This document shows positions 2,856-38,292 of a stretch of DNA of 40,040 nucleotides, piece after piece (within the stretch, counting starts at the first letter, position 1; each line of letters begins with the position of its first letter). The DNA comes from Clostridia bacterium (lineage in GTDB: Bacteria > Bacillota > Clostridia > RGIG7378), in contig JAFYSJ010000002.1 of the NCBI GenBank assembly GCA_017559445.1, positions 100,087-140,126 on the forward strand, read 5' to 3'. The position numbers and the translations under genes are program-made. The notes beneath the pieces were generated by a model. The model was not told the DNA's origin and did no database searches. It saw only the letters and a list, made by a program, of their open reading frames with translations.

Positions 2856-2873
2856 GTATTTGTTTAACATTAA

Positions 2874-3141
2874 CTAGCAAGCTCCGCTTGCGGCTCACTA
2901 GCCGAAGGCGACCTACTAGCGCGATAGCGCGTATACTAGCAAGCTCCGCTTGCGGCTCACTAGCGAATGCAATGAGCGATTACTAGCGCAGCGGTTCACT
3001 AGCCGAAGGCGGTTCACTAGCCAAGGGCGGCTCACTAGAGTGCAACGCACTCGAATCACTAGCCGAAGGCGAATCACTAGGCGCAGCCGGATCGTTAGAA
3101 CCGCAGGTCTGGAACACTAGCACCGCTAGGTGCGGAAATCA
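2874..3141 (+). repeat. Mosaic CTAG mini-hairpin repeat array A (about 13 units)
   Basis: About 13 units of 16-25 bp, each beginning with CTAG (once TTAG), holding a short inverted repeat and ending in CGG or CGA plus 3-4 bases such as CTCA, TTCA or ATCA. Examples of cores are CAAGC-TCC-GCTTG (twice), GCC-GAA-GGC (several), GAGTGC-AAC-GCACTC, GGC-GCA-GCC and GCACC-GCTA-GGTGC. The last unit runs into the pyrB stop codon: its terminal TCA is the TGA at 3141-3139. This fills most of the 464-bp gap between pyrB and the permease. No open frame with coding character exists here. Confidence 0.9.
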
Positions 3142-15270: not shown

Positions 15271-15324
15271 AAAAATCAACTTTTCACCCTTCACTTTACT
15301 TTTAAATTTAACTACTGCAAATCA

Positions 15325-15391
15325 CTAGCACCTGCGGTGCGGTTACTAGCAAGCTCTGCTTGCGGCTCACTAGCCGAAGGCGGCTCACTAA
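15325..15391 (+). repeat. Mosaic CTAG mini-hairpin repeat array B (3 units)
   Basis: Three units with cores GCACC-TGC-GGTGC, CAAGC-TCT-GCTTG and GCC-GAA-GGC, each starting CTAG. The array ends CTCACTAA, touching the TAA stop (15394-15392) of the DUF4340 gene on the minus strand. Same orientation and style as arrays A and C. Confidence 0.88.
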
Positions 15392-16765
15392 TTATCTCAT
15401 TGCTCCTTCAACATCTCTTGCTGAAACCAAGATACCTGTGTACTCTCCGTTGTCAAACAAGTAGTACTCGTAAACCTTGTTATCCTCTGGGTTAACCTTT
15501 GCGATAAAGGAGAACTCTCTCTTTGTGCCATCCTTCTTTTCGAAAACAATGGTCAAAGCCTTTTCACCCTCAGGCTTTGCATCTGCATCGATATCAGATG
15601 GCTGCAATGCAGACAACATAGCTGTGTAATACTCAGAAACAGTATCACTATTAACAGGAATGTTGTTGATGAAAGAATCTGTCTCATCACCAACTGGCAA
15701 ATCAAGAACAGAGCTTCCACCCTTCCATGTGGATGTTACATATGCGTGATCTACAACCTTTTCTGTGTAAATAACGTATGCAACCAAGTCAACTGCCTTG
15801 TTATCCAAGAATTCCAAATCGGATTTGCTAAGAGTAACTACAAGGCCAGAGTCCACATCCATTGCATAAATAAACGCAGAAGAAGATGAGTCATTACCGA
15901 AGTAAATTGTTCTCTCCTTGCCGCTATCACATGTGTACTTAATAACGTATCTTGGATTTACAAGACCATACTCCTCAAGCTTTTCTTGAGAGTTGTCTGT
16001 GCCCAAATACTGAACAATCTGACAATCCTGCATGGAAACGAAGATAACGGAAAGTGAAGTTGCCTCAGTTTCAATCTTAATGGGAGCTGTCATTGTCCAT
16101 GTCAGGTCCTCATTCTTGGATGTCTCAATAACAACCTGGTTATTTCTCTCAAAGTGCAAGTAATTATAGTCTGTCTCTGGGAAGAAATCTTTGTTAACTA
16201 CGATGGAAATAACATTCATAGCAAAGTATGTTCCCAAATCCAATGGAGCAAGGTTAAATGTGCTGTTTCCATCCAATGTGTAAACTGCAGTTTCGCCTTC
16301 CTTCATAACGTAGAATGTTTCGCCAGTTTTTGTAAGGCCTCCCAAGAGGAATGTTTCCTCTCCACCCCTAAGCTTTAGAGTAACTCTAATTGGGTTGTTA
16401 AGACCATATACAGACTTATCTGAAACATTTTCTTCAATAAGCTTTGCTCCCTTAATATAGGATGCAAGCATTACGTAAACCTCAATAAGTCCAGACTCTG
16501 CATCGATATCCTCAGAGATAAGTTCCCAACCATTGTCTGTATTGCTAAACTCTACTACTCCGTAGGAGTTATCGATAACCAATCCATCTATGAAGTTATA
16601 GTTTGTAATGTTGATCAAAACCTTAGATGTGTCTTCTGCATCTGTAGTTTCTGGAGTACGAACCGCCTCGATGTAATCGATCAAAGCCTTTGCTCCAAAT
16701 ACAGCACCGGCCAAAACAACAGCTACTACAACTACAATTATAAGATTTCTAGTGCTTTTGCTCAT
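15392..16765 (-). CDS. DUF4340 domain membrane-anchored protein of a Gld-like ABC exporter
   Basis: A 457-aa protein with one N-terminal transmembrane helix (about residues 7-30) and a large extracytoplasmic region, matching the DUF4340 pattern of repeated beta-rich halves. Such proteins regularly accompany GldG-like ABC auxiliary proteins, probably as an extracellular part of the transporter. It is the last gene of a four-gene operon and its ATG is one base after the gldG-like stop, with the ribosome site inside that gene. The molecular function is unknown. The stop codon abuts repeat array B. Confidence 0.85.
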   Translation of the reverse strand: MSKSTRNLIIVVVVAVVLAGAVFGAKALIDYIEAVRTPETTDAEDTSKVLINITNYNFIDGLVIDNSYGVVEFSNTDNGWELISEDIDAESGLIEVYVMLASYIKGAKLIEENVSDKSVYGLNNPIRVTLKLRGGEETFLLGGLTKTGETFYVMKEGETAVYTLDGNSTFNLAPLDLGTYFAMNVISIVVNKDFFPETDYNYLHFERNNQVVIETSKNEDLTWTMTAPIKIETEATSLSVIFVSMQDCQIVQYLGTDNSQEKLEEYGLVNPRYVIKYTCDSGKERTIYFGNDSSSSAFIYAMDVDSGLVVTLSKSDLEFLDNKAVDLVAYVIYTEKVVDHAYVTSTWKGGSSVLDLPVGDETDSFINNIPVNSDTVSEYYTAMLSALQPSDIDADAKPEGEKALTIVFEKKDGTKREFSFIAKVNPEDNKVYEYYLFDNGEYTGILVSARDVEGAMR

Positions 16766-20081: not shown

Positions 20082-20753
20082 CTACTCCGGAATAAGGGGC
20101 AAATTTCCTGCTGCTGCGGCATAAAATACAGCTTTTGCTCCATTTTTAAGCAAAACCTCTGCTGCAGATTCTAATGTTGCGCCTGTAGTAATTACATCAT
20201 CCACCAAAACTACGGTCCTGCCACGCACCTGTCGTGACGCCACAAATCCAGCTTCCATCAAAAGTCTCTGAGCTCTGTTATTGTGGTGCTGTGGAAGTGT
20301 GTTGACAGAGCGCAAAAGCCACTGTGCCTCCATGGGTATGCCTGTAATATCCGAAACAGTTTTAGCGATGACTTCCGCCTGGTTGTATCCCCTGCGCCTT
20401 TCTCGATCTCGATGTAAGGGTATCGGAATTAGCACTACATCGTTACCCCGTCCAAGGAATCCACATCTGCGCACCTGCTGGGCCAAAATCTTACCAAGCA
20501 CAACTCCTGCTTCCCTATGACCGGAAAACTTAAGGCTGCTTATGAGACGTGGTACTTCACCGTAGTAATACAGGGGGCAAAGAACACCGCTACAGTGTCG
20601 GAAACCATCGTTTTTTGTCGGGATGCAAAAAGAAAAGCCCTTCCTGAATGGAAGAGCCTTATAACAGCTATTGCATATATGGGATGTGGTATTTTCTGTA
20701 ATCGCTCCACACACCACACAAGTTGTAGGGAAAAAGAAGTTTTTCAGTTTCAT
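20082..20753 (-). CDS. comFC: ComF-family phosphoribosyltransferase-like protein
   Basis: A ComFC homologue of 223 aa, a protein needed for DNA uptake in competent Firmicutes and also present in non-competent ones. It has an N-terminal zinc finger (CVVC and CNSC pairs), the RRGYNQAE motif, and the PRPP-type loop VVLVDDVITTGATLESA. The start is taken as ATG 20753, giving the typical MKLKNFFFPTTC opening. The frame could extend to TTG 20777, but those codons lie inside the conserved stem-loop at 20767-20784. No clear Shine-Dalgarno is seen before 20753. Confidence 0.88.
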   Translation of the reverse strand: MKLKNFFFPTTCVVCGAITENTTSHICNSCYKALPFRKGFSFCIPTKNDGFRHCSGVLCPLYYYGEVPRLISSLKFSGHREAGVVLGKILAQQVRRCGFLGRGNDVVLIPIPLHRDRERRRGYNQAEVIAKTVSDITGIPMEAQWLLRSVNTLPQHHNNRAQRLLMEAGFVASRQVRGRTVVLVDDVITTGATLESAAEVLLKNGAKAVFYAAAAGNLPLIPE

Positions 20754-20766
20754 ATATTTTTTATTG

Positions 20767-20784
20767 CTTTGGAACAACCCAAAG
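20767..20784 (-). repeat. Conserved CTTTGG stem-loop next to array C
   Basis: CTTTGG and CCAAAG frame the loop GTTGTT on the minus strand. It follows GTAGCGGGCGAC, which itself follows array C read on the minus strand. The same order (array, AGTAGCGGGCGAC, CTTTGG stem with loop GTCGTT) is found on the plus strand at 28318-28363. Confidence 0.75.
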
Positions 20785-20795
20785 GTCGCCCGCTA

Positions 20796-21024
20796 CTAGC
20801 GCGATAGCGCGGCTCACTAGCGAGTGAAACGAGCGGATACTAGCGCAGCGGCCTACTAGCCGAAGGCGGATACTAGCGCAGCGGCCTACTAGCGCGATAG
20901 CGCGGCTCACTAGCGAGTGAAACGAGCGGATACTAGCGTAGCGGCCTACTAGCCGAAGGCGGCTCACTAGCGACTGAAACGAGCGGATACTAGCACAGCG
21001 GCCTACTAGCGCAGCGGTCTACTA
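20796..21024 (+). repeat. Mosaic CTAG mini-hairpin repeat array C (12 units)
   Basis: Twelve units, many repeated in the same order. Cores are GCGC-GATA-GCGC, a GAGTGAAACGAG type, GC-GCA-GC, GCC-GAA-GGC and GC-GTA-GC. A five-unit group is partly duplicated (20796 and about 20890). The last unit is followed by CTA, the TAG stop codon (21024-21022) of the methyltransferase gene. No coding potential is apparent, although one frame stays open because the units lack stops. Confidence 0.92.
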
Positions 21025-22206
21025 TCTCAGCACACTTTCCAGTGTCGGATGCACCTGCATTTCACCAACCAAAGTCTCGTACTCTCTCCTCTTCATTGGT
21101 GAGGCTGGCTCTCCTGTATATACGCACTTGAGCATTAAATTCTTAGGAGTATGCTCCATATCTACAAATTCAATAATATCCACCTTGTAACCACAGAGTT
21201 CCAAGATACGTGCTCTCAAAGCATCTGTCAGCAAGGCAGCAAATCTCTCCTTGAGCAAACCATACTTAAGAAGTGGTGCCAATGTTTCGTTCTGCACCTG
21301 GCCGTTAAGTTCGTGCTGACAGCAAGGCACTGACAAAATAACAGGAACCTGACCCTTAATAGCCTTTTCTAAAGCAAAGTCAGTTGCTGTGTCGCATGCA
21401 TGCAATGTGACAACCATGTCTGTGTTGGAATATGCCTCCTGGTACTCCTCAATGCTACCCACTTCAAAGTGGAGCTTGTCAAAACCACAGGCCTCAGCCA
21501 ACTTATTACAGTCATGGATTACCTGCTCCTTAAGGTCAAGGCCAACCATATCAACCTTGCGCTCCTTAATCTTGGTGAAATAATGGTACATGGCAAATGT
21601 CAAATAAGACTTACCGCAACCAAAGTCCACGATTCTCAGCACATCTCTATTTGGCAAGGAATAGTAGATGTCATCCACAATCTCCAAAAATCTGTTAATC
21701 TGCACGAACTTTCTGCGCATAGGTTGAAGGACTCTACCTGTCTCATCCATAACACCAAGCTGCTGCAAAAAGTCCAAGGGCTGACCCTCTGGAATAATAT
21801 AATTTTTGGTTCTATTATGTGCCACTGGCTCTGGCTGAGCCTTGGGTGCATTTTGTGCACCGCCGTGGTGAATAATCTTAACGCTAGATCTATCGGGCTT
21901 AGCCATTATCTGGTACAAACCCTCTGTTGTCTTAAGGTTAAGAGTGGAGAACATGCACTTGTCTAGCAAAGCCTCCAACTGGTCAGCAAAAACGCTGGCC
22001 ACGTCAGACACATTAATATGCTGAACCTGCTTTGTAAGTCTAACCTCAAACTGCCAATTAATGCGGCCCTTGATCTCAACTCTGCGCGCAGACACCTTGG
22101 TGATGCCTGTATTTATACCCTTAGTTGGAGTAACTGTAAGGCTAATCAAATTGCCATTTGCAACAAGCTTAGTCACCAGTTCTCTGAGTTTGATGTCCGT
22201 TGTCAT
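21022..22206 (-). CDS. Class I SAM-dependent methyltransferase
   Basis: A 394-aa protein with an N-terminal domain of unknown role (about 1-140) and a Rossmann methyltransferase domain. Motif I is RIVDFGCGKSYLTFAMYHYF, followed by the acidic VGLDLKE and the LHACDTATDFALEKAI and SVPCCQHEL motifs. The CDTATD and PCCQHEL signatures match a subgroup of rRNA/tRNA-type methyltransferases annotated only as SAM-dependent methyltransferase (related to the GSTCD family). The target is unknown. Its start overlaps the end of the next upstream gene by 4 bp (ATGA). The stop codon is supplied at the edge of array C. Confidence 0.85.
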   Translation of the reverse strand: MTTDIKLRELVTKLVANGNLISLTVTPTKGINTGITKVSARRVEIKGRINWQFEVRLTKQVQHINVSDVASVFADQLEALLDKCMFSTLNLKTTEGLYQIMAKPDRSSVKIIHHGGAQNAPKAQPEPVAHNRTKNYIIPEGQPLDFLQQLGVMDETGRVLQPMRRKFVQINRFLEIVDDIYYSLPNRDVLRIVDFGCGKSYLTFAMYHYFTKIKERKVDMVGLDLKEQVIHDCNKLAEACGFDKLHFEVGSIEEYQEAYSNTDMVVTLHACDTATDFALEKAIKGQVPVILSVPCCQHELNGQVQNETLAPLLKYGLLKERFAALLTDALRARILELCGYKVDIIEFVDMEHTPKNLMLKCVYTGEPASPMKRREYETLVGEMQVHPTLESVLR

Positions 22207-28073: not shown

Positions 28074-28153
28074 ACTGCCTCCACATAGATAATTTCATTT
28101 TATCACCACTGTGAGAAATAGGCAAAGCTGGGGTTTTAGTGATCAGTGAAGAG

Positions 28154-28262
28154 TGATCCGCTACGCTAGTAGGCCGCAAGCAAAGCTTGCTAGTAACCGC
28201 AACTGCGTTGCTAGTGAAACGAACGCGTTGCGTTCTAGTGAAATGACCACAGGAACATAGTG
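28154..28262 (-). repeat. Mosaic CTAG mini-hairpin repeat array D (4 clear units plus degenerate ones)
   Basis: Read on the minus strand the units have cores GAACGC-AAC-GCGTTC, GCAAC-GCA-GTTGC, CAAGC-TTT-GCTTG and GC-GTA-GC, each preceded by CTAG. A diverged unit beginning CTATG adjoins. It lies in the 408-bp intergenic gap between diverging genes, and its orientation is opposite to arrays A, B and C. Confidence 0.85.
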
Positions 28263-28267
28263 ACAAT

Positions 28268-28468
28268 CACTAAACACTGCAAAGCAAAGCTTTGCGAATC
28301 GTGCCTCCCGCGCTTCGGAAGTAGCGGGCGACTTTTGATTACTTTGGGTCGTTCCAAAGTAATAGATAAACACTAAACACTAATCCTTTACCACCGAAGA
28401 ATTTAATGTTATCTTCATTGTATGTATTTATATTATTAGTGAGCAGTAGGCTCAACACTAAACACTAA
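28268..28468 (+). repeat. Three dispersed CACTAAACACTAA-type short repeats
   Basis: CACTAAACACT recurs at 28268, 28371 and 28456, the last two continuing as CACTAAACACTAA. They are spaced 103 and 85 bp apart between the CPBP gene and the MBOAT gene. A further hairpin (GCAAAGC-AAA-GCTTTGC, about 28278-28294) lies between the first two. No gene is seen in this gap. The role is unknown. Confidence 0.6.
28318..28363 (+). repeat. AGTAGCGGGCGAC plus ATTACTTTGG stem-loop
   Basis: AGTAGCGGGCGAC is followed by a perfect 10-bp stem ATTACTTTGG/CCAAAGTAAT with loop GTCGTT (28338-28363). It matches the element next to array C in order, orientation and sequence, so arrays C and D belong to a larger composite element. 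Confidence 0.75.
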
Positions 28469-28481
28469 CCTGGAGGTTATC

Positions 28482-37813: not shown

Positions 37814-38182
37814 ATGAGCCACGAGAAGCGCTGTCGCGCTAGTAACCGCACCGTTGGTGCTAGTGGGCCGCTGCGCTAGTAGCCGCACCGTTGGTGCTAG
37901 TAGGCCGCCTTCGGCTAGTGAGCCGCTGCGCTAGTAGGCCGCTGCGCTAGTAGCCGCACCGTTGGTGCTAGTATCCGCTGCGCTAGTGAACCGGCTACGC
38001 CTAATGAACCGCTGCGCTAGTAGCCGCAACTACGTTGCTAGTGGCCGCTCGTTTCACTCGCTAGTAGGCCGCCTTCGGCTAGTGAACCGCTGCGCTAGTA
38101 GCCGCACCGTTGGTGCTAGTATCCGCTCGTTTCACTCGCTAGTGAAACGGCTACGCCTAGTGAACCGCAACTGCGTTGCTAG
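37814..38182 (-). repeat. Mosaic CTAG mini-hairpin repeat array E (19 units)
   Basis: The largest array, about 370 bp, lies between the GH36-like gene and tRNA-Cys. Read on the minus strand its units include GC-GCA-GC, GCC-GAA-GGC, GCACC-AAC-GGTGC (five copies), GCAAC-GCA-GTTGC, GCAAC-GTA-GTTGC, GGC-GTA-GCC (two copies), GAGTGAAACGAG types and one GCGC-GACA-GCGC. Every unit is led by CTAG (one TTAG). A frame stays open through much of it but is not a gene. Confidence 0.93.
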
Positions 38183-38250
38183 TTATGTGAGGAGTTGGAT
38201 TTTTAACAAAAATATACAAAAAACAATACAAAACATACTAAAATTCTGCG

Positions 38251-38279
38251 TTGACACATGCATATCTCTTTGTTACAAT
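38251..38279 (+). promoter_or_regulatory. Promoter of tRNA-Cys
   Basis: Consensus TTGACA (38251-38256), a 17-bp spacer and TACAAT (38274-38279), ending 13 bp before the tRNA. This is one of the best sigma-A promoters in the window. Confidence 0.85.
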
Positions 38280-38292
38280 AGCTAAGCGATGT

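Follow-up and report, generated by a model that had tools for sequence, protein, structure and literature searches.

Strand-bound GNA loops in tandem arrays of ACTA-tagged mini-hairpins: a candidate REP-like family in a Clostridia genome

Introduction

REPs are short, multi-copy extragenic hairpins that reach hundreds of copies per genome, fall into stem sub-types and have four unpaired bases immediately upstream of the stem. They are often restricted to single species, and their partner enzyme is RAYT/TnpA-REP, a Y1 HUH transposase. Passages of PMC8266576 state that the identity of the REP loop can matter for the enzyme.

The units described in this work, which come from the genome of a Clostridia bacterium, share all these architectural features and were likewise found in a single one of the genomes searched. 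In copy number and extragenic location they agree with REPs, and with mostly 15–24 nt they are somewhat below the REP size of 20–40 bp. Their tag, however, is ACTA instead of GTAG or CGTC, their stems have 2–6 bp in contrast to mostly 6–9 bp in REPs, and their loops are GNA or GNNA, whereas REP loops are mostly TY or CMA. The units are strictly arranged head-to-tail, an orientation that is rare among REP pairs, which are mostly inverted. Moreover, no Y1 transposase was found here, although the CGTC REPs likewise lack a dedicated transposase according to passages of PMC3733652. We hence regard the architecture as REP-like but, given the differences in tag, orientation and partner enzyme, do not assign the units to REPs. 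An IS200/IS605 element was rejected because neither TnpA (Y1) nor TnpB scored over cut-off. Also a CRISPR array was rejected, as linkers of a few nt between variable hairpins do not correspond to identical repeats with unique, similar-sized spacers.

Two further systems resemble the units at the level of the single hairpin. DNA mini-hairpins are extraordinarily stable when a GNA or GNNA loop sits on two or more G-C pairs: GCGAAGC melts at 78 °C (PMC4686876), and a mini-hairpin with a 2-bp stem at 76.5 °C (PMC10527192). The first-pass annotation of our locus had referred to the exceptional stability of d(GCGAAGC)-type hairpins. Loop rule, C-G closing pair and at least two G-C pairs are shared by 325 of 565 units analyzed here and by most GCGC tetraloop units; the published C(GNA)G and C(GNNA)G mini-hairpins are oligonucleotides with measured melting, whereas here hundreds of them occur in one genome and are known from sequence. 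The promoters of the phage N4 virion RNA polymerase are also small hairpins in which a C-G pair closes the loop and the loop bases are G..A, on one strand only. PMC4496689 describes them as strand-specific and the closing pair and both loop bases as needed for extrusion. N4 has three promoters and a known polymerase, in contrast to the tandem arrays with exchangeable stems found here.

Mitochondrial mobile hairpin elements, i.e., double-hairpin elements, repetitive hairpin-forming elements and the yeast mobile DNA family, are short palindromic units as well and spread without a known transposase. They are organellar, to our knowledge not ACTA-tagged, and we liken them to the ACTA units by description. 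Among the papers listed in a literature search, none describes the ACTA-tagged hairpin repeats.

Results

The window, i.e., the whole stretch of 40,040 nucleotides that was analyzed, lies on contig C28 of a 1.68-Mb draft genome (40 contigs, 96.4% complete). One protein encoded in the window has its best named matches mainly in Lachnospiraceae and in part in Paenibacillus, at 41–56% identity, which points to a probable member of the Clostridia. Between a comF-like gene (20082-20777, minus strand) and a methyltransferase-like gene (21022-22206, minus strand), a plus-strand array of 12 head-to-tail units with a terminal ACTA foot extends over 20795..21024, with the first ACTA at 20795 and the terminal one at 21021-21024. 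It opens with the GNNA tetraloop unit GCGC-GATA-GCGC (20795..20815) and with GCGAGT-GAA-ACGAGC (20816..20838), which has a tandem G·A mismatch in its stem and a T-A pair closing the GNA loop. Two GC-GCA-GC units (20839..20854 and 20872..20887) then enclose GCC-GAA-GGC (20855..20871), after which GCGC-GATA-GCGC (20888..20908) and GCGAGT-GAA-ACGAGC (20909..20931) recur. The array continues with GC-GTA-GC (20932..20947), GCC-GAA-GGC (20948..20965), a damaged and unparsed copy of the tandem-G·A unit (GCGACTGAAACGAGC, 20966..20988) and GC-ACA-GC with its non-GNA loop (20989..21004), and ends with a further GC-GCA-GC (21005..21020), all on the plus strand. The 12 units thus comprise six C-G-closed GNA triloops, two T-A-closed GNA units of the GCGAGT-GAA-ACGAGC type and the damaged copy of the latter, two tetraloops and one ACA loop.

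The first-pass annotation had described the loops as mostly C-G-closed GNA triloops; in this array they account for half (6/12), and the description holds when all 58 arrays analyzed below are taken together. The cores it had named exist, GC-GCA-GC, GC-GTA-GC and GCC-GAA-GGC in this array and GCAAC-GNA-GTTGC and GGC-GNA-GCC in others, and its tandem G-A mismatch units are real, both as GCGAGT-GAA-ACGAGC and, elsewhere, as GCGAAT-GCA-ATGAGC. The GCGC-GATA-GCGC units were missing from its list.

Four further arrays lie in the window: at 2873..3140 (plus strand), a short one at 15324..15393 (plus strand), a four-unit array at 28146..28239 (minus strand) with the stem order GAACGC, GCAAC, GCAAGC, GC inside a longer dispersed composite repeat, and an 18-anchor array upstream of tRNA-Cys at 37819..38183 (minus strand). 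With a parsed row from flanking repeat (28240-28261) set aside, the five arrays contain 43 parsed units, distributed over 22 C-G-closed GNA loops, 5 GNA loops with another closing pair, 3 GNNA, 4 YYY, 6 AAC and 3 others. At some array 3′ ends, as in the window at 21018-21027, arrays start right at the stop codon of a gene on the opposite strand, whose TAG is then provided or overlapped by the terminal ACTA. Open reading frames of about 107–138 codons traverse arrays at L026 (2476-2889), L010 (2567-2899) and in the window (37962-38285); they are probably spurious.

Genome-wide, the loose pattern ACTAG-N3-25-GCGG gave 633 matches versus 87 for the reversed pattern, and tandem pairs numbered 393 versus 0. 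From stretches round the listed arrays we obtained 58 arrays with at least three anchors, which cover 303 of the 393 tandem pairs. Their 638 ACTA intervals were reduced by 50 on account of length, and 23 of the remaining 588 stayed unparsed, which left 565 units, at least one of them a false row (the flanking repeat at 28240-28261). A hold-out of 19 further arrays was taken afterwards; 18 of its 156 intervals were dropped (14 by length, 4 unparsed). Many arrays lie near contig ends (C9, C18, C19, C27, C29, C30, C36, C39), where assembly may limit array lengths and some block repeats.

Each unit consists of ACTA, the hairpin, G (usually GG) and 2–3 linker bases that lead to the next ACTA, and a lone ACTA foot closes many arrays. 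Most of the 58 arrays are located between genes, and in every array all units have the same orientation. To avoid circularity in testing the foot, we anchored on ten hairpin cores with the foot left out. ACTA directly preceded 377 of 394 copies, G directly followed in 98%, and the linker was variable.

The stems fall into about 13 classes: GC/GC, GCC/GGC, GCAAC/GTTGC, GCGC/GCGC, GCAAGC/GCTTGC, GCGAGT/ACGAGC, GCACC/GGTGC, GGC/GCC, ACGAGC/GCTCGT, GCGAAT/ATGAGC, GGACC/GGTCC, GAACGC/GCGTTC and AC/GT. Their arms are nearly perfect. Single G·T or A·C intermediates link GCAAGC/GCTTGC with ACGAGC/GCTCGT, and the GC/GC class has GC/GT and AC/GT relatives; pairing is thus maintained while the stem sequence changes. 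In a wobble test for strand specificity, seven stem mismatches were G·T and three A·C, a lean that is not significant (one-sided p 0.17, n=10, two rows judged non-unit or mis-parsed excluded); the hold-out had about two G·T to one A·C (one row excluded). Tandem G·A mismatches occur in the stems of about 50 units, always in a pyrimidine-GA-purine context. This context favours sheared G·A pairs.

Of the 565 units in the 58 arrays, 508 carry triloops. Read on the ACTA strand, 373 of these are GNA, 75 all-pyrimidine, 42 ANC-like and 16 TNC, the TNC and all-pyrimidine groups overlapping; TNC on the ACTA strand corresponds to GNA on the opposite strand. GNA loops closed by C-G make up 325 of the 565 units. 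Among hairpins outside the arrays, taken as the chance level, the GNA fraction was 4–6%, with 81 of 1360 GC-NNN-GC sites and, for C-G-closed arms, 73/1614 at 3 bp, 26/450 at 4 bp and 6/112 at 5 bp. A genome scan with free loop (ACTAGCNNNGCGG) returned 204 sites, against 0 when reversed, and an eye count found 91 GNA loops among the 100 matches listed. In the hold-out, GNA occurred in 74 of 128 triloops and in 27 of 30 GC stems, and GTCA appeared as a further GNNA loop. The loop rule is hence real and bound to the ACTA strand.

Within the loop, the first and third bases are nearly fixed. In the seven GNA stem classes, which comprise 381 triloop units, 70 units deviated from their class consensus at position 2 alone, 12 at position 1 alone and none at position 3 alone. 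The non-GNA loops within these classes were found at one to four loci per type, in contrast to GTA of the GC class at 19 loci. The tetraloops on GCGC arms (n=43) were GATA (15), GACA (13), GTTA (6), CATA (6), GACT (2) and GAAA (1), i.e., G came first in 37 and A last in 41, and the GNRA form was seen once. Four-base loops therefore follow GNNA with a pyrimidine at position 3 and not the RNA-type GNRA. Over the 58 arrays and the hold-out, the share of GNA or GNNA loops was 170/196, 126/136, 97/112, 98/153 and 0/104 for stems with two, three, four, five and six Watson-Crick pairs, respectively. The loops published as stabilizing thus sit on weak stems while the strongest stems do without them, although such class-level statistics rest on roughly 9–13 stem lineages, and the pattern may partly reflect descent from a few of them. 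In about a quarter to a third of all units, the loop is neither GNA nor GNNA.

The ACTA strand showed no fixed relation to its surroundings. Between tandem gene pairs it was sense in 12 arrays and antisense in 19 (p 0.28), while 10 arrays lay between convergent and 8 between divergent genes; this count covers those 49 of the 58 arrays for which both flanking genes were known (9 had an unknown neighbour) and uses simple ORF calls, some of which fall inside arrays and are probably spurious. Of the adjacent arrays on a contig, 17 pairs shared a strand and 19 did not. Since arrays thus point at random relative to genes and to the arrays next to them, neither a strand-specific function as RNA nor a signal of replication polarity is likely, and the strand preference is a property of the unit itself, not of its genomic context.

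Transcribed hairpins, acting as terminators, mRNA stabilizers or small RNAs, would agree with the stop codons that are often close to arrays, and for REPs of other genomes an action partly at the RNA level has been proposed (PMC3733652). However, the GNA strand is found in both senses relative to tandem genes, the pyrimidine at position 3 of the tetraloops shows that they are not RNA GNRA loops, and the RNA model leaves the 2-bp stem of the most frequent class unfolded. In addition, no Rfam family matched the arrays, the window's single match being the tRNA. We consider an RNA role quite improbable.

Even less probable is a role as palindromic sites that a protein recognizes and binds in the duplex. 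Multi-copy palindromes within a fixed ACTA/G frame are what such a protein might require, but arm sequence and length vary between classes while the loops keep a strand-specific G-N-A, and a duplex palindrome gives no reason for a strand preference of its loop. Taken together, the strand-bound GNA excess, the fixed G1 and A3, the GNNA tetraloops, the stabilizing loops on weak stems and the random orientation support folding as single-stranded DNA, which would fit better than RNA structure or arm recognition in the duplex.

The proposal of the first-pass annotation, selection for single-stranded DNA folding on one particular strand, agrees with these features but finds no echo in nearest-neighbour calculations. 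With DNA parameters, ViennaRNA assigned equal energy to both strands in 86% of units and left two-pair units unfolded, and the loop letters were immaterial for most units. The strands come out equal for most units because this model shows no GNA bonus. Folding of whole arrays with nearest-neighbour DNA parameters formed 32% of the intended pairs. A stable DNA hairpin on the ACTA strand is predicted and well supported by sequence, the physical side of the claim leaning on published oligonucleotide melting.

We further analyzed how the arrays are composed. In arrays of at least five units, 482 of 651 units, 94 of 589 neighbouring pairs and 22 of 527 triples recurred exactly in another array. Arrays are thus mosaics whose units come from a common set of about 13 stem types shared across the genome. 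Order was tested in contiguous runs of at least three units. L164 was excluded as a possible duplicate of L155 at contig ends, and 10 repetitive runs were removed for one sub-test. Adjacent units had the same arms in 22 of 582 cases, whereas shuffling within arrays predicted 82.1, and leaving out the GC class gave 5 versus 44.7. Individually, 52 arrays stayed below their own shuffle and 4 exceeded it. Such neighbour avoidance concerns the arrays as a whole, e.g., L034 (minus strand), L040 and L011, and an alternation of short and long stems accounts for part of it. Identity at lag 4, on the other hand, was raised (88 versus 51.6 expected), which indicates that blocks were duplicated, and a few arrays consist of repeated dimers (bdbdbd, dadada; letters denote stem classes). 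A protective role of unit order against mis-pairing was not supported, as real and shuffled orders of 50 arrays folded alike. Assembly collapse of identical neighbours is unlikely with pairs below 50 bp, whereas longer block repeats may be mis-assembled.

Discussion

The order of units bears on whether the arrays need a dedicated enzyme at all. As passive tandem repeats, they could grow by slippage, promoted by GNA hairpins, while hairpin-templated quasi-palindrome correction keeps the arms matched. The plain block duplications seen at lag 4, the dimer-repeat arrays and the nearly perfect arms are as expected from such processes. Slippage of single units, however, predicts identical neighbours, and these are almost 4-fold depleted; arrays thus grow mainly in another way, or such neighbours soon disappear again. 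Moreover, the arrays share one genome-wide pool of types, and about 50 units retain tandem G·A mismatches that templated correction would be expected to remove. An origin of the arrays as passive repeats is therefore possible but rather doubtful.

The distribution of the units is narrow. The tandem pattern was found in this genome alone among 99 genomes, and a looser pattern gave 134 matches here and 1–3 each in 8 others of 291 genomes, where none of the matches listed contained the unit hairpins of this genome. Pattern scans found no units in the one congener compared (about 70% DNA identity). In this congener, the comF-like and methyltransferase-like genes nearly touch with no array between them, and 95 bases beside tRNA-Cys stand against 471 in our genome; at such identity, insertion points in the alignment of empty sites are not base-exact. 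Blastn against plasmids and phages returned no match, and three viral pattern scans and one genome-contig pattern scan were empty, with the qualification that these collections may leave out the genome itself.

As an alternative, the hairpins could be DNA structures of benefit to the host: like N4 promoters, they would be extruded under supercoiling and then either attract a host protein or take up torsion. The C-G closing pair and the G..A loop bases are those that N4 promoter extrusion needs (PMC4496689), and arrays occur in all kinds of intergenic regions, including the 8 divergent ones. Essential host functions, however, are usually older and better conserved than units that are absent from the congener and from other relatives searched, and arrays with random orientation keep no fixed relation to gene ends. 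We regard a host function as unlikely.

We favour the view that the units are tiny hairpin elements of a REP-like, lineage-specific family that would be moved via single-stranded DNA by a putative enzyme, and assign this reading a probability of roughly one half. Each unit consists of an unpaired 5′ ACTA foot with a hairpin of 2–6 bp, a 3′ G or GG and a linker of 2–3 nt, joined head-to-tail between genes. Whenever the DNA is single-stranded or supercoiled, the ACTA strand would fold into C(GNA)G or C(GNNA)G mini-hairpins. A putative enzyme acting on single strands might then read hairpin and foot and insert or exchange units beside an existing ACTA, so that copying of the element itself would select for stable loops on one strand. 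Selection for stable loops could hence act on the mobility of the element rather than on the host.

The putative enzyme is not a recognizable Y1 transposase of this genome. Y1_Tnp (PF01797) had no matches in this genome and in the congener, while it was present in 25 of the 41 genomes searched. In both genomes also TnpB (PF07282), reverse transcriptase (PF00078) and Rep_trans (PF02486) gave nothing over cut-off. That the assembly missed a mobilizer gene is possible but, given the completeness of the draft, not likely.

More speculatively, the units might form a selfish system of mini-hairpins only, in which several hundred ACTA units would be moved singly between arrays by a putative non-Y1 enzyme, with a choice for stability on one strand and a neighbour-exclusion rule by which adjacent arms differ. 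We put this extended version forward as a tentative and rather unlikely one. If the favoured reading holds true, a genome would be seen to make natural use, on a large scale, of the C(GNA)G mini-hairpin rule, for which oligonucleotides and N4 promoters are otherwise the main examples, and this rule would become testable as an evolutionary constraint. REP-like elements would then extend to a new tag, a strictly tandem layout and a genome without recognizable RAYT, and a new hairpin-reading enzyme would have to be sought.

Several arrays adjoin a second dispersed palindromic repeat (CGTGCCTCCCGCGCTTCGGAAGTAGCGGGCGAC...ATTACTTTGGGTCGTTCCAAAGTAAT), located in the window at 28285-28370; four places in the congener resemble it, with no plasmid match. 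The composite element (ATGTTCC..TGGTC..TTT) occurs with and without hairpin units, in the window at 28215-28480 and at L009, L010, L018, L034 and L037, and runs of heptamer-like ACACTAA/TTAGTGT repeats are found at the same places. Copies of the composite repeat carry the unit string l-c-e-a at four places and l-c-a-b-f-c-a at another (letters again denote stem classes), and these strings are a trace of unit turnover within one context.
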